From a virus: a stretch of DNA of 64,000 bases. Shown piece by piece: positions 4,719-63,870 of this stretch. Where the stretch lies: positions 1-64,000 of IMG/VR virus record IMGVR_UViG_3300032092_000023; one strand, written 5' to 3'. Every line of letters begins with the position of its first letter. Position 1 is the first letter of the stretch. The notes beneath the pieces were generated by a model. The model had not been told where the DNA came from. It made no database searches and saw nothing but the letters and a program-made list of their open reading frames with translations. A program made the position numbers and the translations under genes.

Positions 4719-4741
4719 AATGAAAATGATTTTGTTTTGAT

Positions 4742-4770
4742 TTATATATATGAAGTGGAAAATAGTTCTT
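4742..4770 (-). promoter_or_regulatory. Middle-type promoter (AAGAAC ... TATATATAA)
   Basis: On the minus strand AAGAAC is followed after 14 nt by TATATATAA, about 25 nt before the ATG at 4718. The same two-part arrangement precedes gp45, gp52, gp39 and hsp20. Confidence 0.5.
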
Positions 4771-5404
4771 AAAAATGTATATCATTTTTTTCATCAGGAA
4801 CCTCTGTTGAAATTTGTCTACGAATGACAAGAGTCCCATCGTTCTCTATGTAATACTTTTTGCGTGATGGAAAATTCATATATTCAATGAGAATTTTATA
4901 GACATCAATAATCTTATAGTAAGGGTCAGAAATTTTGACATCGTAATCTAAGAAATCCACAAAGTCGATTTCGTCAGCCTGCAAACGTCGTTCAACACTG
5001 TCTACATTAGCCTTTCTTGCGTACATGCGTTCACTTCTTTCTTCTTTAGGAATGTCCAAGAAAATAACCAAGGATTCTTCCCTGTCTTCAGATGAAAGGT
5101 GTGACAGGCCAGACGGCGTCATAATAAAGACAGAGTTTTCTGTGTAAAACTGTTCACGCGTGGTTCCATAGTTCCAGCCGTTGAATTTTACATGCTCATA
5201 CCACTTGTCTTCGTTGATCATACGATTAAAAACACGCATGGGAATAAAGTGGTAATCTATGCCATCTTGTTCGTCTTCACGAGGATGACGGGTTGTGTAT
5301 GATATTTGATATGTTAGTCCAAACCACTGTTCACACATCTTACGGGCATAATCTTTGCCTGCTCCGCCTTTTCCTACTAGGATTAGTCGTTTTTTCTTTT
5401 CCAT
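4769..5404 (-). CDS. Guanylate kinase-like (deoxy)nucleoside monophosphate kinase
   Basis: About 211 aa, near the usual length of GMP kinases. P-loop GKGGAGKD at the N-terminus, then the nucleotide-binding segment SYTTRHPREDEQDGIDYHF, the most diagnostic GMP kinase motif, and YGTTREQF in the lid region. It should phosphorylate GMP or dGMP; the substrate range may be wider, as in T4 gp1, which belongs to another family. I chose the ATG at 5404; an upstream TTG would add 4 residues. The start lies inside the 3' end of the preceding membrane protein gene (22-nt overlap). Confidence 0.75.
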   Translation of the reverse strand: MEKKKRLILVGKGGAGKDYARKMCEQWFGLTYQISYTTRHPREDEQDGIDYHFIPMRVFNRMINEDKWYEHVKFNGWNYGTTREQFYTENSVFIMTPSGLSHLSSEDREESLVIFLDIPKEERSERMYARKANVDSVERRLQADEIDFVDFLDYDVKISDPYYKIIDVYKILIEYMNFPSRKKYYIENDGTLVIRRQISTEVPDEKNDIHF

Positions 5405-5664
5405 AGTTTGCTCCAAGGTATAAGAGTTGCAACAAAAACATAAAAGATAAATGCGTCTTTTAATGAAAGAGGCGCAATACCTGCTTTAGTTAAAAGTAAT
5501 TCTTGGACATAATAAAATAGATAAATCTTAGCAGCTGCCATAGCAAGACCGGCTATTGCTACTACGATTACTGTAAAAATTGATTGCGATTTAGACTTGT
5601 CTCCGTCACCTTTTAATTCTTGCAAACGCTGACGGAGTGCATCTGTCTTTTCTTTGTCTATCAT
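5383..5664 (-). CDS. Small membrane protein, two TM helices
   Basis: 93 aa. A charged N-terminus with a short helix (ALRQRLQELKGD) is followed by two hydrophobic segments at about residues 28-52 and 66-83 and a basic C-terminus (WKRKND). No family recognised; size and topology would fit a holin but also many phage membrane proteins. It overlaps the kinase gene and has a middle-type promoter directly upstream, which argues against a purely late lysis role. Confidence 0.45.
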   Translation of the reverse strand: MIDKEKTDALRQRLQELKGDGDKSKSQSIFTVIVVAIAGLAMAAAKIYLFYYVQELLLTKAGIAPLSLKDAFIFYVFVATLIPWSKLWKRKND

Positions 5665-5674
5665 AAGGTTTTTT

Positions 5675-5704
5675 ACTTATATACACAAAGATATAATAGT
5701 TCTT
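5675..5704 (-). promoter_or_regulatory. Middle-type promoter (AAGAAC ... TTTGTGTATATAA)
   Basis: Minus strand: AAGAAC, 15 nt ending in CTTTGTG, then TATATAAG, some 11 nt from the ATG at 5664. The TTTGTG next to the TATA box recurs before 12462, 43498 and 52467. Confidence 0.5.
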
Positions 5705-5747
5705 TAAAAAACGTGATCATTAGATGTCATTAGATGTTAACAGAAAA

Positions 5748-5773
5748 AAGGTATGAGTTATATCCCATACCTT
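5748..5773 (-). terminator. Intrinsic terminator
   Basis: An 8-bp stem AAGGTATG/CATACCTT with a 10-nt loop is followed on the minus strand by a T-run. It lies downstream of the stop at 5804 and closes the unit that starts upstream of 6299. Confidence 0.7.
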
Positions 5774-5803
5774 GTTTGTCATACCTTTAGATGTATTCTA
5801 TTA

Positions 5804-6004
5804 TTAATCGTTTTCATCGAGATCTTTGTTGGTACTCTTAATACCTGGAGTATAATAAGATTTTTGATCGTCAAAGGCTTTCTTAAGTATTGCATATCCT
5901 TTATCCCCTTTTGCAGGTTTAACCAATTGCGTAGGTGGCGGATAGTCATTGGTTGAAGATTTCTCAAAATCTTCAAACGTTTGGGTTTTCTTTTTATTGC
6001 TCAT
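5804..6004 (-). CDS. Small hypothetical protein
   Basis: 66 aa from the ATG at 6004 (MSNKKKTQTFEDF); the open frame extends 16 codons further upstream but this ATG overlaps the 3' end of the preceding gene and gives the tighter coupling. Lys/Asp/Pro-rich and hydrophilic, probably largely unstructured. No motif recognised. Confidence 0.45.
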   Translation of the reverse strand: MSNKKKTQTFEDFEKSSTNDYPPPTQLVKPAKGDKGYAILKKAFDDQKSYYTPGIKSTNKDLDEND

Positions 6005-10662: not shown

Positions 10663-10681
10663 TCTATATAAGTATGTTTTT

Positions 10682-10690
10682 GTATATATC
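10682..10690 (-). promoter_or_regulatory. Late promoter box (GATATATAC)
   Basis: Minus-strand GATATATAC 20 nt upstream of the tape measure ATG at 10662. Same box as before tube, sheath and portal. Confidence 0.65.
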
Positions 10691-10724
10691 CTTTTCTTTA
10701 ATAAATAGAAAAAACAACACTACT

Positions 10725-11168
10725 ATGAAAGATAGACAAATAATTATTGTTGGCGTGATATCTATGGCAGTAACACTCATTACAACTATTGTAGCGGTAA
10801 TAGAAGGTATTACGCTGTCTTCTTTAGCAGGTACTGTATATGAGCCCTTGCTTTTGCTATCAAGTGCTTCTACCGCACTGTCATTTTTCTTGACTAAAAA
10901 ATGGGTAATCCCTTCACTATTTATTACTGTGTTAGCGTCCTTTTCGGTTCACGTGTTTCCTACTGTACATAACGTGTCAGCAACACTTTTTTACGTATCA
11001 GCATTTATAATTATCTTTTTAGATAAGCATATACGGTGGTATAGGTTTATGCTATTAATACCATTTGCTTTTGCTATTTATAGTCTTTTAGCATTTGAGG
11101 TTGCTTCCAATTTGATATTGGTTATGTATCACATTTATTATGTAATTAAACGTCTACAAGCAAAATAA
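10725..11168 (+). CDS. Plus-strand membrane protein, unknown
   Basis: 147 aa from the ATG at 10725 (MKDRQIIIVGVIS), chosen over an upstream in-frame ATG at 10674 because it has an A-rich leader (AAAAAACAACACTACT) like other starts here. It has four or five hydrophobic segments spanning nearly the whole protein and a basic C-terminus (KRLQAK). It is the only gene on this strand in the first 61 kb and sits between the tape measure gene and the chaperone-like gene. No function recognised; an imported cargo gene (for example superinfection exclusion) is possible. Confidence 0.65.
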   Translation: MKDRQIIIVGVISMAVTLITTIVAVIEGITLSSLAGTVYEPLLLLSSASTALSFFLTKKWVIPSLFITVLASFSVHVFPTVHNVSATLFYVSAFIIIFLDKHIRWYRFMLLIPFAFAIYSLLAFEVASNLILVMYHIYYVIKRLQAK

Positions 11169-11185
11169 GAGGGCCGGAGCCCTCT
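11168..11185. terminator. Hairpin between convergent genes
   Basis: A perfect 7-bp stem AGAGGGC/GCCCTCT with loop CGGA lies in the 18-nt gap between the plus-strand membrane gene and the minus-strand gene ending at 11187. It can serve both directions; T-rich flanks are modest on each side. Confidence 0.6.
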
Positions 11186-11186
11186 A

Positions 11187-11546
11187 TTATAATTTGAATC
11201 CTCCAAGATTAGGTAGAGACGGTGTTGGAAGTTTTCCACCCGCGCCTTTCATCATCCGGTTTGCGTCTCTCATCATTGATGATTGATCAAACTTTGGCAT
11301 GTTTTCTGATTGGTCTTCTTCTCTTCTCTTGTTTTGATTGTTTTCTTTATCATTCCAATCTTTAAGTTTTTCCATCAAGATTTCTGCTCGATAAAACTCC
11401 ATTGCATCGAGTTTATCAGGCGGTAGACGTAGAACTTTAAGAAAGATAAACTCAACATCAAACCAATTCTCCAAAGATATCTGAAATAAGGAAAATAGAC
11501 TTGATTCCTCCGGGAAAGTTGAGCGGCGCGGTAGCCTCCTGACCAC
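11187..11546 (-). CDS. Probable tail assembly chaperone, second reading frame (gp51/GT-like)
   Basis: A 119-codon open frame overlapping the 3' 89 nt of the gp26-like gene in the +1 (or -2) frame. The first ATG is only at codon 49, so the open frame begins with GTG, or the region is reached by frameshifting from the upstream gene. The core (NWFDVEFIFLKVLRLPPDKLDAMEFYRAE is about residues 27-55) looks like a genuine folded domain and is already protein-like before that ATG. The C-terminus is Asn/Lys/Met-rich and disordered. In many tailed phages the gene pair between tube and tape measure makes a chaperone and a frameshifted longer form; position and overlap fit, but the slippery site is not certain (CCCG at the overlap is a candidate). 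Confidence 0.5.
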   Translation of the reverse strand: MVRRLPRRSTFPEESSLFSLFQISLENWFDVEFIFLKVLRLPPDKLDAMEFYRAEILMEKLKDWNDKENNQNKRREEDQSENMPKFDQSSMMRDANRMMKGAGGKLPTPSLPNLGGFKL

Positions 11547-39410: not shown

Positions 39411-40589
39411 TTAAAAAAGTTGAGTTCTAACTATTAGTTCAGGCGGAAGAGGAGGAAGGCCTGTTGCAGCAATAAAACGATTAATAGGATCAATGATACA
39501 TTTTGCAAATTGCGTATCATAATCAACAGGCGGCGCAAACTCAGATGGAAAGTTTCCTGGAAGGTATGCAAAAACATTCTGCCCACCTTCTTCTTGTCTT
39601 GCATAATAGTACCTTACCTTATCACCGCTTTTAATTAATTGATATTTTGACTTCCACTTTGAATTGTTTAAGGTATAATTATAGTAACCTGCTGCGCGAA
39701 CATGCATAGGGCAGTGTTCATTAATCACAAACTTTTTTCTATCTTCGCCTATACCTTTTTCATAATCGCTAATACTTGATGACATTGAAACGTTTTCCAC
39801 ATTGTCAAGCATAAACGATTCTTTCTCTTTCTTTAAGAGGTCAGCAAACTTTCGCATGTTAAGCTTACCTCTTTCTTGGAAGATTATTTTTAGGAGTTCC
39901 ATCAGTTTCTTTCGAGCAAATGCAGGAGTGGAAGACTGTACAATTTCCACTCCTTTTGCATCAATTTTTTTCTGCGGCTCGTAATATGTTCCTCCACCAG
40001 CACCTGATTTCCAGGCTTTATCCATCACATACTTTTTCTTTTTCAAAAAGATAGCACTGTGCGATATGGTTTCCATCTCCAGATCTTGAATGTTTTCTGT
40101 CCCAGCTTGGTTTGCCATTGCTGTAAAGTTTTTATCCAAGTAATCCTTTAAGCGATGTTCATATATCAAATGGATAAGTTTTCTCGGATCTTCTGTCCAG
40201 TCGGTTCCTTTGACGACGTCTTGGAAAGATACATAGCAAGAATCGGTATCTCCGTAAACCGCAACCTCATCTTTGATTTTAGTGGCTTTGGTTATTCCAA
40301 TTTTTTCGTGAAGCTGTGTGTCACGATACCAAAAATCTGTGAAGTAGCGATTAATGATCTTGCTTACATACTTAATCATTTCTTGCCCTTGCAAGGTAAT
40401 GGCTTCTGCAACACGAACATTGTAACCTACGAAATACGGAGACGCAGTAGCACCGTAGACCGAGTTGATGAAAATTTTGATAGCCTGCTCCTCATTCTTT
40501 TTCAGATTCATCAACCAGGTCAGTCGATTGATCTCCGCAACGATTTCTTCTTTGCTTGCTGTATTTGGATCAATCTTACAGTACTTCAT
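39411..40589 (-). CDS. DNA polymerase family B, C-terminal half (gp43B-like)
   Basis: 392 aa. It begins within the fingers (MKYCKIDPNTASKEEIV ... LKKNEEQAIKIFINSVYGA, motif B, Kx(6)YG), continues with motif C VYGDTDSCYVSF at about residues 116-127, the KKKKYVMDKAW motif near 190, and the thumb. The exonuclease and motif A are missing here and are encoded at 59902-61284. The gene is coupled to the clamp gene by TAATG, as clamp and polymerase work together. Both halves keep their catalytic residues, so they probably assemble into one enzyme. Confidence 0.9.
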   Translation of the reverse strand: MKYCKIDPNTASKEEIVAEINRLTWLMNLKKNEEQAIKIFINSVYGATASPYFVGYNVRVAEAITLQGQEMIKYVSKIINRYFTDFWYRDTQLHEKIGITKATKIKDEVAVYGDTDSCYVSFQDVVKGTDWTEDPRKLIHLIYEHRLKDYLDKNFTAMANQAGTENIQDLEMETISHSAIFLKKKKYVMDKAWKSGAGGGTYYEPQKKIDAKGVEIVQSSTPAFARKKLMELLKIIFQERGKLNMRKFADLLKKEKESFMLDNVENVSMSSSISDYEKGIGEDRKKFVINEHCPMHVRAAGYYNYTLNNSKWKSKYQLIKSGDKVRYYYARQEEGGQNVFAYLPGNFPSEFAPPVDYDTQFAKCIIDPINRFIAATGLPPLPPELIVRTQLF

Positions 40590-43498: not shown

Positions 43499-43517
43499 AA
43501 AGTAATCGCGAGTTCTT
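43487..43517 (-). promoter_or_regulatory. Middle-type promoter (AAGAAC ... TTTGTGTATATAAAC)
   Basis: Minus strand AAGAAC, 16 nt ending in CTTTGTG, TATATAAAC. It lies across the apparent 5' end of the gp52 frame. Confidence 0.55.
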
Positions 43518-44385
43518 AAAGCCTGATTAGGCTATTCTGCCAGATGATATCGGCAATTTTCTTCGATATTAAAGTATCGGATGGATAGTGAATTCCCGTA
43601 AGTTCTCGACTCTCTGCTATTCTTTGTCCTAGCGCTTTAATGTCGGATGCAGCATCGGGATACTTTCTTGCATAGTGTTCACTCATAACATACGCGGTTA
43701 ACGCGTGACCACTAGGATACGCAGCTGACATTGCATCAGTACGTATTAAGGGATAAAGAGGGTAGTTATAGTACTTTGCAAGTTGATAGGGGCGAGGACG
43801 ATTGATGACATCTTTCAGAAAATGTAAAAGTCCTTCTGTCTGCTGATCTACTCTAAAGAAACTTCCCATGTCTTCTTTATGACCCTTTTCATCTAATAGA
43901 TCAATGAAGGTTTGCGCAAGATTGCTAACATCATCAACATGACGAGCAAATGTAATTTCTTCTGCGGTTGCCTTTGCGGTTCTGTCTACCAAATACTCCA
44001 GATCTTTTTTTGTTGTGATGCTGTCATTAACCGGGCTTTCTTCTTTGATCTTTTCGCATAGTCCTTTCTGCACAAACCAATCTTTAATATAATCGTCGGG
44101 CCGCTCCATAATTTCAATGTATTCACGAGGAGGATTACCGTAATTTACTTGATTGATGTCAAGACTAGAATCTAAAACACTCACCTGTGCTTCGTAAAGG
44201 TCCGTCTTCTTTTTCTTCCCTTTGTCAGGACCGCCTTCATGAGGTATCATTCCTTGGGCAATAAGAGAAGTCTTTACGCCAAAAGGAATGTCTTTGCCTT
44301 CTTCATACTCTGCCTTGTACTTTTGCAGAGTTTCTTCTTTGTAAGGAGACTTTTTCTCACTGATGAAATCTTTATAGTTTTTCAT
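43516..44385 (-). CDS. PAP2-type acid phosphatase with capsid-targeting-like N-terminus
   Basis: 289 aa. The PAP2/vanadium haloperoxidase signature is complete: KDVINRPRPYQLA (KxxxxxxRP), YPSGHALTAY (PSGH) and SRELTGIHYPSDT (SRxxxxxHxxxD). No TM helix or signal peptide is seen, so it is a soluble type. The first ten residues MKNYKDFISE are very close to the T4 internal-protein targeting peptide MKTYQEFIAE, with a likely cut after FISE. The substrate is unknown; soluble PAP2 enzymes act on phosphate monoesters, nucleotides or lipids. Confidence 0.85.
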   Translation of the reverse strand: MKNYKDFISEKKSPYKEETLQKYKAEYEEGKDIPFGVKTSLIAQGMIPHEGGPDKGKKKKTDLYEAQVSVLDSSLDINQVNYGNPPREYIEIMERPDDYIKDWFVQKGLCEKIKEESPVNDSITTKKDLEYLVDRTAKATAEEITFARHVDDVSNLAQTFIDLLDEKGHKEDMGSFFRVDQQTEGLLHFLKDVINRPRPYQLAKYYNYPLYPLIRTDAMSAAYPSGHALTAYVMSEHYARKYPDAASDIKALGQRIAESRELTGIHYPSDTLISKKIADIIWQNSLIRL

Positions 44386-44396: not shown

Positions 44397-44801
44397 TTAT
44401 TGTTCATTATTGTGTTTGCATTTGTGGCACATGTAAGGATCATTTCCACCGGTAACAATATCCCATTGCCACCCACAGCCATCACAAGTAATAACACCAT
44501 CTTTAATACTTTCCATTAAATCCTTTCGTCCAAGTTGTTTGTAAACTTCTTGTCGAACCTTTTCCATTTTATCAGCGTACTCCGGATCTTCTTTTCGATT
44601 AAAAACAATTTGTTGAGTAATGCTACCGCTAATCTTTTTCACATCTTTATTGCGTGTTTTAATAAGCCACGCAGCTAAGTCTTTAATTCCTAAATCACGG
44701 AAACGTCCTTCAGCATCTGGAGCGTCGCTATCTTTCCAATCAGGAGCACCTGCAGGTTTCTTTTCAATTAGCCAGTCTTCAAATAGTTTAAGATGTTTCA
44801 T
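44397..44801 (-). CDS. Zinc-ribbon protein with capsid-targeting-like N-terminus
   Basis: 134 aa from the ATG at 44801 (MKHLKLFEDWLIEK); a TTG 3 codons upstream is less likely. The C-terminus has a zinc ribbon, CDGCGW ... MCHKCKH, with four Cys. The middle region is helical (RFRDLGIKDLAAWLIKTRNKD in pieces). The N-terminal WLIE ends like a prohead protease site. It probably binds nucleic acid or protein, but the function is unknown. Confidence 0.6.
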   Translation of the reverse strand: MKHLKLFEDWLIEKKPAGAPDWKDSDAPDAEGRFRDLGIKDLAAWLIKTRNKDVKKISGSITQQIVFNRKEDPEYADKMEKVRQEVYKQLGRKDLMESIKDGVITCDGCGWQWDIVTGGNDPYMCHKCKHNNEQ

Positions 44802-44817
44802 AATTTGCAAACTTTAA

Positions 44818-45093: not shown

Positions 45094-45654
45094 TTATAGT
45101 TTTGAGTCGTGACCTCCGTCTCTTACTTCTTTGGCAAGATCTTTATCAGCCTTGCCCCATGTGCCTTTACCTTTGGTTAAAAAGCTATTTACTCTAGCAT
45201 ACGCCCATTGTGCTTGTGGAATACCTGGACGGTGCCCACTTTTCCAAGCAGCCATTCCGCGTCTCATTACAGCTCTAAGAATTCCTATAGGAACACCTGT
45301 CTCTTCTTGTTTATTCTTAAGCCCAGCTTCCAGCTTTTCATCATCAATAGGTGTACGGTCGGTCGACTGCTTATCTTCATCATCAGCTTCAAACAGAGAT
45401 AGCTCATCTGCAGCTTCCCACATAAAGTTTTCATCTTTGCTAAACTTATCATGGTAAGTATTGGTATGCTTTGACTGTTTTTGCATTGACTTTCCTTTAG
45501 TGTCTCCTGGCATTTCTTTGTATGCTTCAGGATCATCATCAGCCATTGCAGCTTGATCTTTCATCTGTGCTTTTTTCTTAGCCGCAGTTGACTTACTAAT
45601 TCCTTTGAAGTAGTCTTCACTTAAAAAGCTTTCAAATGTGTGTAGATGTTTCAT
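45094..45654 (-). CDS. Capsid-targeting-like N-terminus plus DUF5824-like domain
   Basis: 186 aa. MKHLHTFESFLSE at the start, then a Lys/Gln/Asp-rich linker (about 15-105), then VPIGILRAVMRRGMAAWKSGHRPG followed by QWAYARVNSFLTKGKGTWGKADKDLA (both in shortened form here). The last part is a small domain seen in many phage proteins, which I recall as DUF5824. Its function is not known. It overlaps the dehydrogenase-like gene by 4 nt. Confidence 0.65.
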   Translation of the reverse strand: MKHLHTFESFLSEDYFKGISKSTAAKKKAQMKDQAAMADDDPEAYKEMPGDTKGKSMQKQSKHTNTYHDKFSKDENFMWEAADELSLFEADDEDKQSTDRTPIDDEKLEAGLKNKQEETGVPIGILRAVMRRGMAAWKSGHRPGIPQAQWAYARVNSFLTKGKGTWGKADKDLAKEVRDGGHDSKL

Positions 45655-46703
45655 CTTCCTTGAAATTTATTTATATTTTGGTTAATAACAACCCCTGATT
45701 TGATGTCTATTGAGCCGGCTATTACAGGCTCGGTTTCCCATTTAGTAGAATCCATAATCGTACTTAAATACGGCAGTAACGCATTTGAGATTTCTCGTGA
45801 TGCTGCGTTCCACAGATATGTTGGTGTGTGATCTACTGAATAGTAAGAAATACCACGACCCATATCAATAAGAGGTTTTTCAAATGTGGTTGGCTCTGCA
45901 AAATAGAAACCCATACCTTTATCACAGCTAATGTCAATAATTGCTGTGTTGTTCTTTAATGCATTCAGTTCCACTTCATTTTTGATGTGCATTAACGGTG
46001 CATTTACATCTTGAAGTACTCCGTTAAAAATAATGTCAGCGCCCATTAAGTCTTCCATTAAATCGTCAGTGTTAAAGGACTTGTACCACACGTCCGGATT
46101 TTTATCGCCTACCATGTGTGAAGGCCTTTGAGTATAAACTGTGATATTGTTAAATCCTCGGCCTTGCAGAGCATAGATTGCTCCGCGACTAACTGAGCCA
46201 TAACCTAGAATTACCACCTTTTTGCGTGGACCATAGTGTCCGTCCATTCCTTTTAACTCCAGAAAATGTAAAACTCCTGCATAACCAGCCAACTCGTTGT
46301 TGCGATAGAATGTATGAAGCTTTCCGTGTTTATTGACAATGTTCATTTCTTCCCACGCTAGTAGAGTCAGTTTCTTTTGTATTGCCAATTCCGCAATGTC
46401 TCTTTGTTGAACCGCGTGTGTCCAACCGCAAAGAGTTGTTTCGTCTCTCATCTGTTCCAAATCAGCAGCTACTGGTTTTGGTAATATGATTAGGTCGCAT
46501 TTTTTAAATAAGTCTTCTCGCTCTGCAAGGGAACATCCCCATTTTTCTAGCAGCTCGTCTGTGTAACCATAGTCTTCTCCATAGCCTTTTTCAAAAATAA
46601 GTTCGGAGAGTAGATTGCGGTCAAGTGTACGAATTGCATCTGGATATATTGGAACCCGCTTTTCGTTTTCTTTGTATGATGTTTTGAATATTCCTGTTTT
46701 CAT
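45651..46703 (-). CDS. N5-(carboxyethyl)ornithine synthase-like dehydrogenase
   Basis: 350 aa of the alanine dehydrogenase/transhydrogenase superfamily. Features: NEKRVPIYP at the N-terminus, the Rossmann loop VVILGYGSVSRGAIYAL at about residues 165-181, NGVLQD, and DISCDKGMGFYFAEPTTF with YYSVDHTPTYLW near the end, which I associate with N5-(carboxyethyl)ornithine synthase. Such enzymes join pyruvate to the side-chain amine of ornithine or lysine with NAD(P)H. Overlaps its neighbours on both sides by 4 nt. It has no capsid-targeting-like N-terminus. Confidence 0.75.
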   Translation of the reverse strand: MKTGIFKTSYKENEKRVPIYPDAIRTLDRNLLSELIFEKGYGEDYGYTDELLEKWGCSLAEREDLFKKCDLIILPKPVAADLEQMRDETTLCGWTHAVQQRDIAELAIQKKLTLLAWEEMNIVNKHGKLHTFYRNNELAGYAGVLHFLELKGMDGHYGPRKKVVILGYGSVSRGAIYALQGRGFNNITVYTQRPSHMVGDKNPDVWYKSFNTDDLMEDLMGADIIFNGVLQDVNAPLMHIKNEVELNALKNNTAIIDISCDKGMGFYFAEPTTFEKPLIDMGRGISYYSVDHTPTYLWNAASREISNALLPYLSTIMDSTKWETEPVIAGSIDIKSGVVINQNINKFQGR

Positions 46704-47791
46704 TTAGCGTCAAGATTAAAAAAGTAGCGGTATCCGTCTTTAGCTTTTGGGTCTGTAAGTATTTCGTAGTCCATTGGCCATTGCGATGACTCTATTTCTT
46801 TTTTGTATTTTGGATAGTAGTTTTGGTGGCCAGGCACCGTGTAATTTTTGTATATGCTTTCTAAGAATTTATCTGGCAGCGGTTTACCGTAAAAGTCTTC
46901 ATAGATAGCTTTATAAACTTCAGTCATTTTAACGCTACCTAGCCCGGTTGCAGATGAGGTTTCCATCACCCAGAGTTTCCCTTTTTTGTCTACCACCACA
47001 TCAAGACCCCAAAGATCCAGGTCAAGAAATGTTTTAACATCTTTACAGATTGAGGTTACTTGTTTAATAAATTCAGGGTCAACTTTATTTTGATCTTGGT
47101 AGACGTAGGTAAAACTAATTTTTTCTTTTGCCTTTTTTGTACGAATTGAGCGGTTGTCATCAATTGTTGGTACTCTTTCGTTAATTACAATAATCTTGTC
47201 TCGGCAAAACATAACACGGTATTCTCTGTCAAAATCTATAAATTGGCAAAAGAGATCAAACTTTTCTTTGCTCTTTTCTAATTCTTTAGCGTCATCAAAC
47301 TTTTGAATACCTAAACCGCTGTGTCCGTCTTTAATTTTTGCAATTACAGGAAAACCTACTGCGCCATCAACAGCCTCCTTTTTTGAAAACACGGTTTTTG
47401 GAAGCCAGCTAAATTTATTTGCTTTCTCGGCAAAGGTTACTTTGTTTCCTGAAAGAGGAAGAAGTTCTTGTTGGTTATATATGTTCTTTTTATTAACCTT
47501 TTTGTTTTTGATAAACAGCGTAGATTCTTCATTGCTTGGACCACCTCCATACCAAAGAATTGGAATGTCATTAGGAACTACCACATCATCTTTATCGTAT
47601 TCGTCTTTTGTTGAAAAGTTTAAGAATAGATTACCTTTTGCTGCAACGTTGTACTTTTTTTCCCGAGAGTTTGTATCACCCGATGTTGCGTGGATATTAT
47701 GTGACATCATTACCCAAGCCACGCGTTTTGCGTTTGTATCTTTTAGATTTTCTTCGTAGATAAATTCCTCAAACAGTTTAACGTGGTTCAT
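46700..47791 (-). CDS. ATP-grasp ligase with capsid-targeting-like N-terminus
   Basis: 363 aa. ATP-grasp elements are FPVIAKIKDGHSGLGIQKF (lid strand and Gly-rich loop), FDREYRVMF, and LWGLDVVVDKKGKLWVMETSS with the metal-binding Glu (RimK-like). These enzymes make amide or peptide bonds through an acyl phosphate. The first residues MNHVKLFEEFIYE match the shared peptide. Followed by the dehydrogenase-like gene (ATGA overlap) and preceded within 2 nt by a GATase-like gene, it is the core of a probable biosynthetic cassette. Confidence 0.75.
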   Translation of the reverse strand: MNHVKLFEEFIYEENLKDTNAKRVAWVMMSHNIHATSGDTNSREKKYNVAAKGNLFLNFSTKDEYDKDDVVVPNDIPILWYGGGPSNEESTLFIKNKKVNKKNIYNQQELLPLSGNKVTFAEKANKFSWLPKTVFSKKEAVDGAVGFPVIAKIKDGHSGLGIQKFDDAKELEKSKEKFDLFCQFIDFDREYRVMFCRDKIIVINERVPTIDDNRSIRTKKAKEKISFTYVYQDQNKVDPEFIKQVTSICKDVKTFLDLDLWGLDVVVDKKGKLWVMETSSATGLGSVKMTEVYKAIYEDFYGKPLPDKFLESIYKNYTVPGHQNYYPKYKKEIESSQWPMDYEILTDPKAKDGYRYFFNLDAK

Positions 47792-47792
47792 C

Positions 47793-48416
47793 TTAGTTTG
47801 TAATGGATTTTTTATGATCTATATATTTGAAGATTTTAGCCAATTCTTCTTTTATGCCATCAGAAGATTTTTCTAGATGCGGGCTGAACAGACTTACACA
47901 ACCACTTCCAAAAAGATTAAACGTAATAGATGGAGTGCCTTTCATATCATAATAGCCGCCTTCTGCTATAAAATTGCTATTGTATCTAGCAATTATTTCC
48001 ACATTAGGATTACCATCCAGAGTAAAAACCGGACCGTTATGATAGTTTACCGTATGATCTATTCCATGCATTTGTATACTAGCCTCATGCAGACCACGCT
48101 CCCAAGCTTTATCTGGTATAGTAAGCGGTGTAATCATTAAGTGGTTTGCTGCTAAATATGCACCCGCGCAAACACCAATGTAGGATCCGCCATTGCGCAC
48201 CCATTCAATAATATTTGCAGACATATTACCTAATCTTTCATAAAACGCTGATCCCGAACCGCCGGGGAAAAGTACATGGTCGGGATTACTGTCCAAGATT
48301 TGCTCGGCATTGCATAATCGCAATTCCCATTCGGGCAGGTATTTGGAAAAAAAGCTAATCCAAATTTGCGTGGTAGGAGAACTTTCGTCAGTATGAACGT
48401 ATAGGTTTACCGTCAT
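47793..48416 (-). CDS. Class I GATase-like protein of the BPL_N type
   Basis: 207 aa. VLFPGGSGSAFYERLG, then WVRNGGSYIGVCAGAYLAA with the nucleophile Cys in the GVCAGA elbow, VNYHNGPVF, and CVSLFSPHLE near the end (His-x-Glu as the rest of the triad). This pattern belongs to the biotin-ligase-N type branch of GATase/DJ-1-like folds. It may supply ammonia or cleave an amide for the adjacent ATP-grasp enzyme. Two nucleotides separate the two genes. Confidence 0.7.
   Translation of the reverse strand: MTVNLYVHTDESSPTTQIWISFFSKYLPEWELRLCNAEQILDSNPDHVLFPGGSGSAFYERLGNMSANIIEWVRNGGSYIGVCAGAYLAANHLMITPLTIPDKAWERGLHEASIQMHGIDHTVNYHNGPVFTLDGNPNVEIIARYNSNFIAEGGYYDMKGTPSITFNLFGSGCVSLFSPHLEKSSDGIKEELAKIFKYIDHKKSITN
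47819..47828 (-). promoter_or_regulatory. Possible late promoter box (AATATATAG)
   Basis: Minus-strand AATATATAGATC within the last codons of the GATase-like gene, about 28 nt upstream of the ATP-grasp ATG. It may drive the ATP-grasp/dehydrogenase pair. Confidence 0.4.
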
Positions 48417-48957: not shown

Positions 48958-49356
48958 TTAACTTCTCTGTTTAACCCAATCTAAGAAAAGGCCTATCTTA
49001 CGAATTGTGTACATAGAAAGATTTTTTCTAGCTGCGGCATAATCCTGAGAAAACTCCACACCGTCAATCTGTGCTGTTCTCCACTCATTAGATGTATCTT
49101 GAGCAAAAAGCGGGCTATCGCGGAGATCACGAAGAAGAAGTTTCATTGCCTCATCATCGTTATTTTTTACTGCGTGATCAAGTTTTTCTTTCTTTTCCTC
49201 ATACATTTCTGCCCTTGCACTTTCCCCTCGCCAGTCCTCTTTTTGCGGATCAGCATACACTTTAATGTTTCCTGCTTCCATCTCAATAAAGATAGGACTT
49301 GACAGATCACGCTCTAAGAGCCAATCTTCAAAAAGTTTTGTGTGTTGGTATCGCAT
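48958..49356 (-). CDS. Hypothetical protein with capsid-targeting-like N-terminus
   Basis: 132 aa, begins MRYQHTKLFEDWLLERD with a WLLE site. The rest is charged and helical (EEKKEKLDHAVKNNDDEAM) with a C-terminal LFLDWVKQRS. No known domain. A late box lies only 5 nt upstream of the ATG. Confidence 0.5.
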   Translation of the reverse strand: MRYQHTKLFEDWLLERDLSSPIFIEMEAGNIKVYADPQKEDWRGESARAEMYEEKKEKLDHAVKNNDDEAMKLLLRDLRDSPLFAQDTSNEWRTAQIDGVEFSQDYAAARKNLSMYTIRKIGLFLDWVKQRS

Positions 49357-49360
49357 TACA

Positions 49361-49370
49361 TTTATATATC
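49361..49370 (-). promoter_or_regulatory. Late promoter box (GATATATAAA) close to the start codon
   Basis: Minus-strand GATATATAAATGTAATG: box, 5 nt, ATG at 49356. The predicted leader is a few nucleotides at most. Confidence 0.6.
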
Positions 49371-50733
49371 AATCATGCAGTATAGGTTGTAAAGGATTAG
49401 GAAATGGTATTACCACAATAGGTAGTTGAATTGAAGTTAGGCAACCGTTAAAGGAAACCAGGTTTAGCTGATATGTTGTACTTACTACCGGCGTAACAGT
49501 GATACTTGTTGTTGTTTGATTTCCAGGTAACCACACATATGACTGATATCCCGAAGGAACGGTAAGAACTACCGATTCACCAATGCAGATCGTATCAGGA
49601 AATGCTTGCAATAGCGAAGGTGCACAGTTAGCGTCAATGTATGCGTATCCGTAATGCGCTCCTTGGCTGCAGTCACCAGTGGTAAATTCCGCAGTGACTT
49701 TCTGACCTATGTAATTAGTGAGGTCAACGTTTACAGAGCTCCAGGGTTTGTATCTAACGCCGGTGCAAGTTGGCGAATTAAAGAAACCTGGTAGGTTTCC
49801 TGCCGCAGATACCGCAAAGTCAGAGCAAGAAATGATTGCGCCATTTTGGTCTCTTAACACGGCACGAAAAAAAGGCTGTTCATTAGAATTATGGCCAGGA
49901 TCTTCAAAGACAACCGCGTATCGATATGTAAAGCTGCTGTTGGAAGGAGAAACCATAAAGGTTTGTGTCAGCTGTTCTGCTTGCGAATTGACATCATTGT
50001 TACCTAGACGAACAGAGAAAGGTGATCCTGACGGATCGACACGAGGAAATCCTCCGCAAGGATCGTTTCCACCTCCCATGATTGTGTGTCTTCCGTTAAC
50101 AATTCCCAGTGTGGTTGAATTGTAATTGGGTGTCTGTGATCCAGCGGGTGATATTGTGGAAAGGCCCGTCGTGCCAAACCATCCTACGAAAGAGTTTGCA
50201 TTAAAGTTAATGTTGGTACAGGAAGGCTGTGCTACAACCGGCGTAAATTGCATGCTGAGGTCAAACTGATAGCAGTTGGGAAAGAAGTTTGACCAAGTAA
50301 ACGCATCAACTAAAACATAATAGGTCTGTCCAGCTTCTACGTGTCTGACAAGCGATCCGCCTCCTTGCGTAGGATCGCATTGAATAAAACCTACGCAGGC
50401 GCCGGCAGTACCGGGGCATGCCGATAAAAGAGAAATTGTAGGATAAGCAAAGCCGGCGGATACTATATCGTTAAGAACAACGTTAACATATCCGTCTTGA
50501 CTCGGAGTAAAGCTGTATAACCAATCTTGTCCTCCATAATAGTTTCCAGTACTTGTAGCTATGCAAGGATTAGCTCCCGTATAATCATTTCCATCTCCAC
50601 AAGTGGATTGGTTGTTACCAAAGAATGGAAGTGTTATAGGATTAGCAGCAGCTCCTGCACAGGTATTAGATCCTTGTGCGCTAAGTTTAGAACAGAAAAT
50701 CAGGAATAATGATATGTACTTAAGTATTTTCAT
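49369..50733 (-). CDS. Secreted, Bacteroidota-type surface protein
   Basis: 454 aa. Signal peptide: MKILKYISLFLIFCSKLSAQ, cleavage after AQ as is common in Bacteroidota. Then a beta-rich domain (WLYSFTPSQDGYVNVVL, ACPGTAGACVGFIQC, YYVLVDAF) of the type found in their extracellular proteins, a jellyroll-like middle (residues 190-390), and an Ig/PKD-like end (PDTICIGESVVLTVPSGYQSYVW in pieces). It stops abruptly after this repeat, without the type IX sorting domain its bacterial relatives often carry. A late box 8 nt upstream means expression late in infection. Probably captured from a host. Confidence 0.75.
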   Translation of the reverse strand: MKILKYISLFLIFCSKLSAQGSNTCAGAAANPITLPFFGNNQSTCGDGNDYTGANPCIATSTGNYYGGQDWLYSFTPSQDGYVNVVLNDIVSAGFAYPTISLLSACPGTAGACVGFIQCDPTQGGGSLVRHVEAGQTYYVLVDAFTWSNFFPNCYQFDLSMQFTPVVAQPSCTNINFNANSFVGWFGTTGLSTISPAGSQTPNYNSTTLGIVNGRHTIMGGGNDPCGGFPRVDPSGSPFSVRLGNNDVNSQAEQLTQTFMVSPSNSSFTYRYAVVFEDPGHNSNEQPFFRAVLRDQNGAIISCSDFAVSAAGNLPGFFNSPTCTGVRYKPWSSVNVDLTNYIGQKVTAEFTTGDCSQGAHYGYAYIDANCAPSLLQAFPDTICIGESVVLTVPSGYQSYVWLPGNQTTTSITVTPVVSTTYQLNLVSFNGCLTSIQLPIVVIPFPNPLQPILHD

Positions 50734-50807: not shown

Positions 50808-51401
50808 TTAATTCAATTTAACATTTAAGAATTTCTTTGCAGCTGCAATTAAGTCATCAGCGGTTTGAATATATTTTGGAGGTTGATTACGTTTTCTTTG
50901 AGTATCGGTAGTAATTTGCTCGTTGTCTTTATACAATTCAACATATACACCGTTTAGAGGGCTATCTACAATTCTTATCATTACATTTTTCTTTGCAGAG
51001 TTTTCATAATCAAAGTAACGAATAGTTCCGCTTGGATAACCAGGTGAGTTTCTAGTGCCGACTTCTTTCCAATCGTTTTTGGCTAAAATGTCATCAAAAA
51101 GACTAACATCATTTGCCTCGTTTATAGATTCACTCATCCATTCATAACCGTACGCTTTGTATTTACTATGTACTTCTTTAGGAGTTTTATCTTTATGCCA
51201 GGCTGAACCAATTGCTTTGGCTACGCCCATTTTAACTGCCTCGCGTTCAATAGCATCCAATTTTTTAATTTCAGCCATGTTATAGTTAGAATCCTTTACT
51301 TTTTGACTTTGTGCATGTAACTCATCAAGAAGTTTTTCCACTTTCTTGGGGTCTAGGCCTTCGTTTAAGAAGCTTTCAAACGTGTGTACGTATTGTTTCA
51401 T
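50808..51401 (-). CDS. Hypothetical protein with capsid-targeting-like N-terminus
   Basis: 197 aa, begins MKQYVHTFESFLNEGL, identical over 14 residues to the next gene. Residues 20-90 are helical and charged, 95-197 form an alpha/beta domain (IRYFDYENSAKKNVMIRIV, GVYVELYKDNEQ). There is a second internal MSESINEAN-like site. No known family. Confidence 0.55.
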   Translation of the reverse strand: MKQYVHTFESFLNEGLDPKKVEKLLDELHAQSQKVKDSNYNMAEIKKLDAIEREAVKMGVAKAIGSAWHKDKTPKEVHSKYKAYGYEWMSESINEANDVSLFDDILAKNDWKEVGTRNSPGYPSGTIRYFDYENSAKKNVMIRIVDSPLNGVYVELYKDNEQITTDTQRKRNQPPKYIQTADDLIAAAKKFLNVKLN

Positions 51402-51405: not shown

Positions 51406-51861
51406 TTACTTTGGGTCTAATCCATATTTTTCAGGGTCTTTAGTAACAGCTGCTTTAATATGAATAATCATTTGATCATACTGGTCAGATGAGCAAAGCG
51501 ATTCGCCATTTAATGACACGATATCATAGTTACCTTTGCTTTTAGCACCAATTTTTAAATCAGCTTGTTTAACATCATAGCCAAGTTCTTTAAGAGCGGC
51601 AACTACGGTACTTTTGTAAAAAGAGATGTTTCCTTCATCTAAAAAACTTTCAGCCATATTGGAAATAGCTACATCAGGAAGATCTTCCCAATTAGCAGTA
51701 ACATATTGTTCGTAATCATCAGGATCTTTAATCGCTCCGCTTAACCATTCTTCTCGCTGATCTTCACTAGCTTTATCCCACTTTTGTTTTGTTATAAGTT
51801 TTCTTCCTTCGTTTATGCTTTCATTCAGAAAACTTTCAAACGTGTGTACGTATTGTTTCAT
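51406..51861 (-). CDS. Hypothetical protein with capsid-targeting-like N-terminus
   Basis: 151 aa, begins MKQYVHTFESFLNESINEG. Contains ASEDQREEWLSGAIKDPDDYE and ISNMAESFLDEGNISFYKSTVVAAL (in pieces), mostly helical, with a C-terminal alpha/beta part. Another FLDE lies inside, which might be a second protease site. No known family. Confidence 0.55.
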   Translation of the reverse strand: MKQYVHTFESFLNESINEGRKLITKQKWDKASEDQREEWLSGAIKDPDDYEQYVTANWEDLPDVAISNMAESFLDEGNISFYKSTVVAALKELGYDVKQADLKIGAKSKGNYDIVSLNGESLCSSDQYDQMIIHIKAAVTKDPEKYGLDPK

Positions 51862-51876: not shown

Positions 51877-52467
51877 TTATTGTTTTGCAGAAAATACAAT
51901 ACCAGAACTGCCATTGTCCGAATCAACCTCAGTAAATTTTAATCCGGCTTTGTTAGCTGCATCACGCACATCTTCGGCAGACCCAACTGCGTCAAAGAAA
52001 CAAACAATTGCTTCTTTGGCGTCAATATTTAATGATTTAATAGCCGAACCCCATTCTTTAGGAAGGTTTTCTTCGCCCCCATTTGCATCAGTAAACCAAT
52101 CCCATTCATCTATAATATTGTCAAAACGTTTTGTTTTAGGTCCAAGCGCAGTGCTAGCCTCATTTAAAAAGCTTTCATTCATAGAAACTAAAGCTTTTAG
52201 TTTTCCTGTTGGATCAAAGTTTTTTAGATAGTTTTTTATTGTAGATGTAAAAACTTTAGCATCAGAATCTTTAACACTTAAGTCGCTAATCATATCTGCA
52301 ATTACAACCGTAAAGGCTGTTTTTTTACCAAAAGATGTAATTTTTGTATTAATGTAATCTTCTGGATTTGCTGGATTTGGAAAATAATTTCTAATTTTAG
52401 CCCATACATCAGATTCGTTTAATTTTACCTCATTTAAGAAGCCTTCAAATGTTTTAAGGTGTTTCAT
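51877..52467 (-). CDS. Hypothetical protein with capsid-targeting-like N-terminus
   Basis: 196 aa from the ATG at 52467 (MKHLKTFEGFLNEVKLNE). The frame is open 20 codons further, but a late/middle-type TATATAC box at 52488 lies inside that stretch, so the shorter start is right. The C-terminal part (FDNIIDEWDWFTDANGGEEN, AIVCFFDAVGSAEDVRDAA) resembles a small ferredoxin-like or ACT-like fold, but no family is recognised. Confidence 0.55.
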   Translation of the reverse strand: MKHLKTFEGFLNEVKLNESDVWAKIRNYFPNPANPEDYINTKITSFGKKTAFTVVIADMISDLSVKDSDAKVFTSTIKNYLKNFDPTGKLKALVSMNESFLNEASTALGPKTKRFDNIIDEWDWFTDANGGEENLPKEWGSAIKSLNIDAKEAIVCFFDAVGSAEDVRDAANKAGLKFTEVDSDNGSSGIVFSAKQ

Positions 52468-59893: not shown

Positions 59894-59902
59894 GTATATA
59901 TT
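59894..59902 (-). promoter_or_regulatory. Late promoter box (GAATATATAC) close to the start codon
   Basis: Minus-strand AATATATACAATCCAAAATG; box, 8 nt, ATG at 59885. Overlaps the stop region of the polymerase N-half. Confidence 0.55.
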
Positions 59903-61284
59903 CATAAAGTGTTCATTTTCGCCTTCAATTGTTCAATTTCGTCCTCAATTTCTATATAAATTTTCTTGGATGCCTTTCTTTTTCCGTAATACTCAGAAAG
60001 AATGGTTCGGAAAACACTGTCTTCGTCTTTCTTAAATACTGCGCCCGACGAACAATAAATTTCGGTTTCAGGGTTTACCTGTGCCTGGTCTTCCACATTT
60101 CTTAAATAAGATTCAGGTGATATGTTCCACTGGCGCATGATTGACGGATATAGCGAAGCAAAGTCAAAAGATACCACCCACTCATAGAGGCCTGTCTTAG
60201 GTTCTACAACAAACGCTCCTTCATAAGATTCGCGCTTTTTCTTAGCAGCGTCTGACTTAGGGAATACTTTCCCTCTTCTTTGAAACTCTCTTGCCATCGC
60301 AGCTTCTGCCATCCAAATAGGGCTATATGCTCGGTTAGCTTCCACTTTGGTAATGTTTCCTAATGTTAGGAAAGTTTGCAATGTGTTTAGCTTGCGGTCA
60401 ATCATTTCGACAAGTTTGGTATCGACTGCATTGTAAAAGATGTATGATTCAAAATCGTTTTGATACAAGTCTTGGAGCGTTCCGTTGTACTTTACTTTAG
60501 GAATTCCTAAAGCAGCGCTAGCAACAAAGTCAAGCGTATTGTTTTCTTTAATGTCAATGACACGATCCCATTTCTTATAGACATCAAGATAATCGACTAC
60601 CATGCGGTGCATAGGTAATTGTGCATCTCCTACTATACGATTAGATATTGAGCAAGCGCTAGGATCAATGTTGAGACGTTTACATCGATTCATTAGGTAA
60701 GCCCAGTCATATCCGACAAAATTCCACCCAGTTAGCAAAGGCATCTTAAGAACCGCTTTATAGAAAAAGCTAACCATCATATCATACTCACTCTGAAAGG
60801 GAAGATACGTAAATTCCACTTCTTCTTTTAAGTGTTCTTCTATTCTTTTCTTGATGCTGGCAATTTGCTTTGCCGTCAGCGGGCGGGTTGCCATTGAAAA
60901 GATGCGGTTACCATTGCAAAAGGTTATTGCGGTAACAGGAAATTTTGCAGTGTCAGGCTTTGGCCATTCATCGCCAACCTCAACCTCAATATCGAGAAAA
61001 AACTTTTTGGGTGCATGTGTTGAATAAATGTTTCGTGTCCTTTCTTCAGGCAGTGACCCAAGAAATTCCTCAATTCTCCACTTACTTAAGTATCGAGCCC
61101 GTCTTTTTCTAACGGGCTTGCCATCCCATGATTGAGCGCCAGGATGCGGTTTTTCTCCTAATGCACAGTATTCCCACTCAAACATTTGGTCAGCAGGAAT
61201 ATCAATCTTATCAATTGCAATTTCACCGTTTTCATCAAAGTAAGATATCTTGAGCGATGAGTCGTGTTGTTCTATGTCTATCAT
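59902..61284 (-). CDS. DNA polymerase family B, N-terminal half (gp43A-like)
   Basis: 460 aa. The 3'-5' exonuclease motifs are present: FFLDIEVEV (Exo I, DIE), GWNFVGYDWAYLMNR (Exo II) and FYNAVDTKLVEMID (Exo III), followed by polymerase motif A VVSFDFASLYPSIMRQW at about residues 378-394. It ends in the first fingers helix (SEYYGKRKASKKIYIEIEDE and a few more residues). Motifs B and C are encoded 19 kb away at 39411-40589. A bona fide end is supported by a promoter directly after the stop. The dUTPase gene lies 3 nt upstream. Confidence 0.9.
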   Translation of the reverse strand: MIDIEQHDSSLKISYFDENGEIAIDKIDIPADQMFEWEYCALGEKPHPGAQSWDGKPVRKRRARYLSKWRIEEFLGSLPEERTRNIYSTHAPKKFFLDIEVEVGDEWPKPDTAKFPVTAITFCNGNRIFSMATRPLTAKQIASIKKRIEEHLKEEVEFTYLPFQSEYDMMVSFFYKAVLKMPLLTGWNFVGYDWAYLMNRCKRLNIDPSACSISNRIVGDAQLPMHRMVVDYLDVYKKWDRVIDIKENNTLDFVASAALGIPKVKYNGTLQDLYQNDFESYIFYNAVDTKLVEMIDRKLNTLQTFLTLGNITKVEANRAYSPIWMAEAAMAREFQRRGKVFPKSDAAKKKRESYEGAFVVEPKTGLYEWVVSFDFASLYPSIMRQWNISPESYLRNVEDQAQVNPETEIYCSSGAVFKKDEDSVFRTILSEYYGKRKASKKIYIEIEDEIEQLKAKMNTL

Positions 61285-62337: not shown

Positions 62338-62709
62338 TTAGAATTTCATGGAATACGATTCAATTCTTCCATCTTGTATCAATCGATGTAGAAGTCCATC
62401 ACTAACTTTAAAAGCTTTTTCAGCACCTATCGGTCTGACCATAATAGTATCGCTGCCGACAAGAATACCTATACTTGGACCAAATACTTGTTTTCCACCC
62501 GCCCAAACAAAATTGGGAAAGTACATGAAAGACGTATCAGACCAGGTGTATTTTTCTTTCTTTAAATAATCTAAAAAATCAGCAGCGGCTTTTTTAATCT
62601 CTTTTGCGTCTTCGGAGAATTCGGTTTCTTTCTTAGAGAATACAAATGACTTTACCATTTCATTTATATTTTCGTTGACAAAGCTGTCAAATGTATGTAT
62701 GTGTTTCAT
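62338..62709 (-). CDS. Hypothetical protein with capsid-targeting-like N-terminus
   Basis: 123 aa, begins MKHIHTFDSFVNENINE. The rest is alpha/beta (FSEDAKEIKKAAADFLDYL, GPSIGILVGSDTIMVRPIG). The ATG overlaps the stop of the preceding gene (ATGA). No known family. Confidence 0.55.
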   Translation of the reverse strand: MKHIHTFDSFVNENINEMVKSFVFSKKETEFSEDAKEIKKAAADFLDYLKKEKYTWSDTSFMYFPNFVWAGGKQVFGPSIGILVGSDTIMVRPIGAEKAFKVSDGLLHRLIQDGRIESYSMKF

Positions 62710-63062
62710 ATCTTTGATATTTTGATAAGTTTAGCAGAAGCTTGTCCCATCTTATTTGTAATAGTGACTTTAAAGTCAGAATCTTTAATAAAAGGAAGCT
62801 GCGCTACTATGGTAAAACTTTCGTTTTCTAAGCTTGCTTCATTTCCTCCGGATACTGTTAGACCATTTGGGAGGCTCTTGTTAGACATCCAATAATCAAT
62901 TAACGCTTTTGCTACCTTAGCTGAATTTTTATCAGCAATAATCATTGATGCAGGAAACCCTGGTAAATCTACTGGGCTATATGTAGTATCTCCATTACTA
63001 GATTTCCAAGTTTCTAGTTTGCCTTCATTTAAAAAACTTTCAAATGTATGTATGTGTTTCAT
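62706..63062 (-). CDS. Hypothetical protein with capsid-targeting-like N-terminus
   Basis: 118 aa, begins MKHIHTFESFLNEGK. Beta-rich small domain: TWKSSNGDTTYSPVDLPGF, SFTIVAQLPFIKDSDFKV. The first 26 nt of the gene nearly equal those of the next gene downstream, a sign of shared origin of the leader. No known family. Confidence 0.55.
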   Translation of the reverse strand: MKHIHTFESFLNEGKLETWKSSNGDTTYSPVDLPGFPASMIIADKNSAKVAKALIDYWMSNKSLPNGLTVSGGNEASLENESFTIVAQLPFIKDSDFKVTITNKMGQASAKLIKISKI

Positions 63063-63063
63063 A

Positions 63064-63870
63064 TTACAATTCTTTATTTACTTCATCGCTATACGGATTC
63101 GTAAGATCGATTTCCCCGTTAGCTAACATTTGTTTTACTTTTGCAACTTCATCCGGACCAATGACAGGCATCTCTACTCTTGGCGGAGCACCTGGCATAA
63201 TTTTCTTTGGTAAGGAATCAGCGTTTTTCATCATCAGAGCTTTGCCTTTTTCAAAATCTCCATTAGCACCTGGCATATTACCTAAGCTTTCTTTAACCTG
63301 TTCAGGCGTGATAGGGAACTTTCCTTGAATCCCATTTTCCAAAAAGTTGTCTAACAGGGCCCCGATGTTTTTTCCAGTAAAATCTTTAATGTTACCATCT
63401 CCGGAATTACCACCGCGATTAAACATGCCAACAGTGATTGTATTTAATGCTGTTACTAAAGACTTGCCCGGTAAGTCAATTTGTGTTGCTTCTACTTTAG
63501 CGTTCGGATCACATAAAAATGTAGCAGCCCATCGATGATGTCCATCCATAATGAAATTATCTTCGGAAACAATTGAGCCTAAATCACCACCAATTTTTGT
63601 AGGTTTGGCGTTTAACATGGTACCAATAGCCATCCCAATAGCCTTTTCAGCAATAATCTCTGTTTGTGCAGCTTGAAGATTTTTAACAGCAATGCTTGCT
63701 TTTTTTCCACCTACTACGTCATCTTTTCGATCTCCGTCATTTCCACCTCTTCCAATAGAAGCATTTGCTGCTCTTTTGTTAATCCGGCTCAAGGGAACAA
63801 CATCACGCATTTTAAGAATCTCTATTGAGTCTTCTAGCAAATAACTTTCAAAGGTTTTTACATACTTCAT
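63064..63870 (-). CDS. ParB/Srx-like protein with capsid-targeting-like N-terminus
   Basis: 268 aa, begins MKYVKTFESYLLEDS. VPLSRINK and DNFIMDGHHRWAATFL form the ParB/sulfiredoxin-type core (I-x-DGHHRW-A), as in ParB-like nucleases and CTPases. The C-terminal part is Pro/Gly/Asn-rich with a helical end. Phages use such domains in DNA modification, nicking or partition; as a packaged protein it could act on host DNA on entry. Not proven. Confidence 0.65.
   Translation of the reverse strand: MKYVKTFESYLLEDSIEILKMRDVVPLSRINKRAANASIGRGGNDGDRKDDVVGGKKASIAVKNLQAAQTEIIAEKAIGMAIGTMLNAKPTKIGGDLGSIVSEDNFIMDGHHRWAATFLCDPNAKVEATQIDLPGKSLVTALNTITVGMFNRGGNSGDGNIKDFTGKNIGALLDNFLENGIQGKFPITPEQVKESLGNMPGANGDFEKGKALMMKNADSLPKKIMPGAPPRVEMPVIGPDEVAKVKQMLANGEIDLTNPYSDEVNKEL

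Follow-up and report, generated by a model that had tools for sequence, protein, structure and literature searches.

A conserved two-gene module of T4-like phages couples a leader-bearing, predicted ATP-grasp amide ligase with a carboxyethylornithine-synthase-like dehydrogenase

In bacteriophage T4, certain proteins are carried into the prohead by N-terminal leaders, which gp21 cleaves, and these proteins go on to be injected; the internal proteins IP1-3 block restriction systems (PMC5694885, PMC12373910). A second precedent comes from Providencia rustigianii O14, whose O antigen contains N-epsilon-[(S)-1-carboxyethyl]-lysine amide-linked to galacturonic acid (PMC10609480), and, by analogy, such an amide would be the expected product of a carboxyethylornithine-synthase-like (CEOS-like) enzyme acting with an amide ligase. 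Here, we describe a phage locus in which both themes meet. It lies in the window, i.e., the 64,000-nucleotide stretch analyzed (positions 1 to 64,000 of IMG/VR record IMGVR_UViG_3300032092_000023), which belongs to a 71.5-kb virus record that may itself be a fragment and encodes a terminase, a tail sheath, a tail tube, and T4-like replication genes. The locus consists of a predicted ATP-grasp amide ligase with a T4-like leader, encoded directly upstream of a CEOS-like dehydrogenase. The enzyme families and their pairing in polysaccharide clusters are already known, while the phage setting and the ligase with a head-targeting leader are new.

A preliminary description of this DNA, made from the sequence, had proposed a cassette of three genes at this place, and the three open reading frames are indeed present on the minus strand with ATG starts, encoding 207, 363, and 350 amino acids:
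47793-48416, minus strand: BPL_N (GATase-like) protein, 207 amino acids, with a C83-H180-E182 triad; an optional third gene (assigned with Pfam)
46700-47791, minus strand: predicted ATP-grasp amide ligase with an ArgX/LysX/RimK-like fold and an N-terminal leader, 363 amino acids (AlphaFold2 model, structure matches, and invariant residues)
47753-47791, minus strand: leader MNHVKLFEEFIYE of the ATP-grasp protein, T4 capsid-targeting-like, with an IxE motif at its end, kept in relatives
45651-46703, minus strand: CEOS-like dehydrogenase with an AlaDH/PNT fold, 350 amino acids, without a leader, its gene overlapping the ATP-grasp gene by 4 nt (Pfam, tree, and residues)
The 4-nt junction between the ATP-grasp and CEOS-like genes (overlap 46700-46703) is as originally given, whereas the "2-nt" junction between the BPL_N and ATP-grasp genes is a single intervening base.

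A viral scan (IMG/VR) with the CEOS-like protein gave 16 loci with 69-81% identity, and in all 16 the ATP-grasp gene stands directly upstream of the CEOS-like gene (truncated by the contig end in L002), so that the expected co-occurrence of an amide-forming ligase with this dehydrogenase was found in other genomes. What flanks the pair varies, with at least three neighborhoods. Loci of the L004 type have ribonucleotide reductase and clamp-like genes there, those of the L003/L010 type have cytidylyltransferase-like and ferritin-like genes, and L009 and the window have further leader proteins. Purifying selection acts on both genes (dN/dS, the ratio of nonsynonymous to synonymous substitution rates, 0.03-0.15 where dS could be estimated). 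A wider scan, whose query was an ATP-grasp alignment including one distant phage homolog, added 22 loci, all but one with 28-47% identity. Among the 17 distant-homolog records examined, a CEOS-like gene was present only in L064 (217.7 kb), where it encodes a protein of 50% identity, lies two genes from the ATP-grasp gene on the opposite strand, and makes up a 17th pair locus. A CEOS-like gene without an ATP-grasp gene was never met among these phage loci (the 16 and L064). The ATP-grasp and CEOS-like genes are thus a real, conserved two-gene module of T4-like phages in which the GATase-like gene is optional, and, since distant phages carry the ATP-grasp gene without its partner, the ligase is a wider, independent component. 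We found no published report of the pair in phages in the open-access literature. The reading that we favor, with moderate confidence, is that the pair forms a two-enzyme, late-expressed, head-directed opine-amide module.

The third gene of the proposed trio did not stand. Its product scores 57.2 bits against BPL_N (PF09825, cut-off 24.2) and 21.0 bits against the generic GATase family (PF00117), which is under the cut-off of 22.8; the "amidotransferase-like" label was therefore right about the Cys-His-Glu triad, which is retained in both members (C83, H180, and E182, read by eye), while BPL_N is the better family. A homolog in the same position (66% identical) was found in L001 alone among the 16 loci, the family search detected BPL_N in only two of 14 records, and a viral scan with the BPL_N protein alone gave no matches, by which a fixed trio was rejected. 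Amidoligase_2 was also considered as a hidden third member and rejected. In L064 it stands directly upstream of the ATP-grasp gene (4482-5909). This family (a COOH-NH2 ligase) occurs elsewhere in six other records, and in the four of these that were inspected (L129, L130, L131, and L132) it lies among baseplate-like genes and away from the pair.

The ATP-grasp protein matched several ATP-grasp Pfam models, in every case under the cut-off, and its assignment was secured by structure prediction. The AlphaFold2 model made with a diverse alignment has a predicted local distance difference test score (pLDDT) of 86.7 and a predicted template modeling score of 0.88, with the leader disordered and of low confidence; a run on close homologs only (pLDDT 47) was set aside. 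The closest structure in the VIA comparison is ArgX-LysW (3vpb; Z 16.9, root-mean-square deviation 4.0, 246 residues), and LysX (Z 16.5) and RimK (Z 16.1) match as well, the aligned spans being 237-250 residues. PurK and inositol kinases score just below these, so that the assignment of the reaction type leans also on sequence features. Eight residues are invariant in 19 ATP-grasp sequences (K117, K152, E190, R192, E205, R206, D264, and E277), and these include both ATP lysines, the metal-binding Asp/Glu residues, and an ExR motif (E190-x-R192), which has been linked to ligases making peptide-like bonds (PMC4431377). From the model and these residues, the protein is predicted to be an amide ligase of the RimK/LysX/ArgX type. 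Membership in the R2K clade was rejected, since the linker lysine K117, which R2K proteins have lost and make up for with a second lysine in their RAGNYA domain, is invariant in the 19 sequences and the R2K_2 score of 20.4 bits is under the cut-off of 26.2. A plasmid search with the ATP-grasp protein gave no matches. The dipeptide ligase BacD also matches the model (Z 14.8), and a carrier or acceptor gene is not obvious, both of which would suit the making of a free small molecule, namely a soluble opine-containing dipeptide (osmolyte, chelator, or inhibitor) produced late in infection. Such a product would, however, leave the leader on the ligase without a reason, and no export gene is retained with the pair; we regard it as hardly probable.

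The CEOS-like protein exceeds the cut-offs of both AlaDh_PNT domains (PF05222, 57.8 bits; PF01262, 38.4 bits), and its profile matches alanine dehydrogenase (AlaDH) structures with an E-value of 1e-31. In a maximum-likelihood tree, the alanine dehydrogenases nevertheless split off from it at 100/100, which disfavors a plain alanine dehydrogenase. The phage proteins, that of L064 included, fall into a bacterial clade (support 97/98) with members from Planctomycetota, Chloroflexota, Gemmatimonadota, Streptomyces, and one Escherichia coli plasmid; two of the bacterial members are annotated as N(5)-(carboxyethyl)ornithine synthase. The Lactobacillales CEOS form a neighboring group, the branching order among CEOS groups being unsettled in this tree. 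Residues R16, H96, D257, and D261 are invariant in 23 proteins, and K76 is invariant in the CEOS-like clade and lies within about one column in the other groups, as judged by eye. Aligned in this way, the catalytic residues are largely retained in both enzymes. Synechococcus phage S-N03 and a Staphylococcus phage record gave matches of about 22% identity, the S-N03 protein grouping with AlaDH. In a Phycisphaerae genome (L053, 4545-7143), a CEOS-like gene overlaps a saccharopine-dehydrogenase-family gene, which hints at a lysine-related substrate.

The capsid-targeting-like peptide that had been noticed on the ATP-grasp protein is real, of the T4 type, and kept across the family. The N-termini of the relatives read M-K-x-x-K-[LT]-F-[EN]-[ED]-F-[LIM]-x-E, exactly or nearly so, and the leader is mostly kept down to 28% identity (28-47%), with the final [IL]xE absent in a few (L077, L080, L081, and L068). 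For comparison, T4 IPII and IPIII begin with MKTYQEFIAEA and IPI with MKTFKEF. Ten of the 68 minus-strand genes of the window encode such a leader, when internal matches would lead one to expect about 0.16, while the CEOS-like and BPL_N proteins have none. The gp21 family prohead protease (Peptidase_S77, PF03420) was over the cut-off in eight of 14 related records and not in the 71.5-kb window record, which is possibly a fragment. The T4-like leader is common to otherwise unrelated proteins, a PAP2-type phosphatase among them, which makes them candidate injected proteins. A secreted-looking protein of 454 amino acids (49369-50733) adjoins leader genes and is preceded by the GATATATA motif described below; its C-terminus is Ig-like and, by eye, of a Bacteroidota type, a hint that the host belongs to the Bacteroidota. 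Further features of the window are as follows:
43516-44385, 44397-44810, 45094-45654, 48958-49356, 50808-51401, 51406-51861, 51877-52467, and 62338-63870: leader genes
45094-45654, minus strand: DUF5824 protein with leader MKHLHTFESFLSE, in the same run; elsewhere not retained with the pair
48958-49356, minus strand: small leader-bearing protein (MRYQHTKLFEDWLLE), first gene of the run
49363-49370, minus strand: GATATATA motif, candidate late promoter and the nearest one upstream of the gene run of the cassette (strand bias; structural genes)
2776-52496, minus strand: span of the 11 GATATATA sites

The T4 late promoter motif is TATAAATA, and the octamer GATATATA is a candidate for a comparable late promoter of this phage group. 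It occurs 11 times on the coding (minus) strand of the window and 0 times on the other, with 2.8 occurrences expected for both strands, and it stands shortly before the tail sheath, tail tube, and head-closure genes and two leader genes. In 15 relatives, it precedes the ATP-grasp gene by 4-23 nt, namely by 18-23 nt in L004-L008, L011, L013, L015, L065, L071, L074, L077, L081, and L083 and by 4 nt in L084; in L071-L081 there is an overlap between the motif and the end of the hydroxymethylase-like gene in front. The motif is commoner at leader genes than at others (17/86 versus 21/411, p 3e-5), a p value that is optimistic because related loci were counted apart. In the window, the motif at 49363-49370 heads a run of closely spaced genes, of which the ATP-grasp gene is the fifth. 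The DUF5824 gene overlaps the CEOS-like gene by 4 nt, so the unit is longer than three genes. Between 44000 and 49600, sigma-70-type promoters and terminators were not above the shuffled-sequence level. Two genes downstream of the ATP-grasp gene, L071 (7568-8194) and likewise L077, L081, and L082 have a gene that resembles a sigma factor by eye and could be the one reading the motif; in the window, a sigma-70-like gene lies at 3272-3877. Apart from this, the family B DNA polymerase of the window is apparently split between two distant genes (59902-61284 and 39411-40589). In L004, the parts lie at 2723-4120 and about 10309-11505 (the latter judged by eye), and in L004-type phages the ATP-grasp/CEOS-like pair, a ribonucleotide reductase, and a clamp-like gene sit between the two parts.

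The most serious of the rival explanations arises from the nucleotide-related genes near the pair. It holds that the two enzymes add an amino-acid or opine group to a hydroxymethylated pyrimidine (or nucleotide), i.e., that they hypermodify phage DNA. Most large relatives carry a second thymidylate-synthase homolog in which the catalytic Cys is kept and Asp replaces the dUMP-binding Asn, a replacement that we take to be the mark of dCMP hydroxymethylase. In L113-L117 and L120, this homolog is probably a dCMP hydroxymethylase, which suggests that the DNA of these phages contains hydroxymethylcytosine. Moreover, the hydroxymethylase-like gene of L071-L081 is just upstream of the ATP-grasp gene, four L004-type records encode an HMUDK_hel protein at a distance of about 5 kb upstream from the pair, and Nrd, dUTPase-like, and dCMP-deaminase-like genes are frequent neighbors. 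The HMUDK_hel protein (L004, 1024-2214; likewise L007 and L008) has about 396 amino acids and no obvious P-loop, is encoded near the DNA polymerase gene, and is a possible base-modification enzyme. On the other hand, HMUDK_hel was found in four of nine pair-bearing records tested and gave no match in G002 (202 kb) and G008 (218 kb), both pair-bearing and possibly incomplete. The ATP-grasp gene is also separable from the nucleotide genes through a late-type motif of its own, which in L071-L081 falls within the final part of the hydroxymethylase gene, and a leader for the head is not expected on a nucleotide enzyme. On balance, DNA hypermodification appears unlikely to us. An ADDT search gave no matches, its controls being equally silent.

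A pair of the same composition is found on an E. coli plasmid in an exopolysaccharide (EPS) cluster (WP_429138958 and WP_338385361). As in the phages, the ATP-grasp gene lies upstream of the CEOS-like gene and overlaps it, and WP_338385361, an N(5)-(carboxyethyl)ornithine synthase, is 41% identical to the phage CEOS-like protein (286 bits). Unlike the phage pair, it belongs to a plasmid polysaccharide cluster with a nucleotide-sugar dehydrogenase and an epimerase, and a head-targeting leader was not seen on its ATP-grasp protein. The CEOS gene overlaps the preceding gene in two E. coli plasmids, and that gene is annotated as ATP-grasp in one of the two. The ATP-grasp protein of the E. coli EPS cluster (P0001) gave no significant profile match with the phage ligase family, by which a common descent of the two was rejected, and it looks as if the same chemistry was assembled more than once. 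In a Merdimonas genome, a CEOS-like gene adjoins a TupA-type ATP-grasp gene, again in a polysaccharide cluster. These clusters, together with the known glycan product of P. rustigianii O14 (PMC10609480), would agree with a role in surface glycans, in which uronic acids of the host capsule or lipopolysaccharide would receive an amide-linked N-(carboxyethyl)amino acid made by the pair, e.g., for superinfection exclusion. However, no sugar-nucleotide or glycosyltransferase gene is retained next to the phage pair, the leader and the late motif are unsuited to such a role, and the E. coli and phage ligases have no demonstrable kinship, and we ascribe little probability to it. Quite unlikely, too, is that the two are unconnected late accessory genes, a packaged ATP-grasp protein and an AlaDH-like enzyme of nitrogen or redox metabolism, co-inherited by chance. 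The CEOS-like fold is the AlaDH fold, and the ATP-grasp gene often occurs by itself in distant phages, but the CEOS-like gene was never found without the ATP-grasp gene, even after rearrangement (L064), its clade is well apart from AlaDH, and the same combination recurs in the E. coli EPS clusters.

The opine-amide module that we favor would work as follows. The CEOS-like enzyme would reductively join a 2-oxo acid, probably pyruvate (2-oxoglutarate being the alternative), to an amino acid of the lysine or ornithine type through the amino group of the latter, and an N-(carboxyalkyl)amino acid (an opine) would result. The ATP-grasp enzyme, acting like RimK, LysX, and ArgX, would activate a carboxylate with ATP and form an amide between the opine product and an acceptor, most likely a virion protein or one belonging to the host that has just been infected. 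The T4-like leader, probably cut after [I/L]xE, would direct the ligase into the prohead, so that it would act on or in the virion or be injected with the DNA, and the optional BPL_N protein may hydrolyze the conjugate or supply ammonia. A more specific form of this idea, in which the virion-packaged ligase tags a head or host protein with the opine made by its partner, within the head or just as infection begins, strikes us as somewhat improbable; to our knowledge, opine tagging of a protein has not been described in any phage. If the module is what we propose, head packaging of the T4 type serves to deliver, besides small inhibitors, a biosynthetic ligase that is coupled to an enzyme making opines, and this would be a first testable case of phage opine chemistry. 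It would also account for an ATP-grasp family of T4-like phages that is otherwise unassigned and provide two enzymes for peptide-like amide bonds. Furthermore, the leader and the motif together allow a simple listing of candidate injected proteins in these uncultured phages.

Several observations weigh against this proposal. The ATP-grasp gene occurs without the CEOS-like gene in 16 of the 17 distant records, so the ligase must use another ligand there. Since the CEOS-like protein has no leader, the two enzymes may act in different places, and packaging of the ligase into the head is read from its sequence alone. The third metal ligand, Asn in most distant relatives, is Ser (S279) in the pair clade, and the nearest GATATATA motif of the window lies four genes before the ATP-grasp gene instead of directly upstream. 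The ATP-grasp proteins of E. coli and of the phages are not measurably related, which makes the analogy one of chemistry and not of descent. Finally, we infer the substrates, product, activity, leader cleavage, and acceptor, while the analysis itself shows that the two genes are paired and conserved, which folds and catalytic residues their products have, and that the leader and a late-type motif upstream are present.

Compared with the other known systems, the phage ATP-grasp protein shares with RimK, LysX, and ArgX the fold (Z 16-17), the ExR motif, the catalytic Lys, and the metal-ligand positions and differs from them by its low identity (about 13-15%), its leader, and extra C-terminal helices. 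The Lactobacillales CEOS resemble the phage CEOS-like protein in their AlaDH/PNT superfamily, their separation from AlaDH in the tree, and the conserved Arg/His/Asp residues; the phage proteins are longer (349-353 versus 310-314 amino acids) and contain VDHTP, where Lactobacillales CEOS and AlaDH have P-N or A-N instead of D-H. The jumbo-phage R2K ATP-grasp peptide ligases are likewise phage-encoded and predicted to modify proteins (PMC7824862, PMC4431377), whereas the present protein falls below the R2K_2 cut-off and keeps the linker lysine invariant. With the T4 internal head proteins (IPI-III, and also Alt), the phage ATP-grasp protein has in common the N-terminal leader MKxYxEFIxE, but the T4 internal proteins are small inhibitors, while here the leader, our only ground for expecting packaging, sits on a predicted amide ligase.

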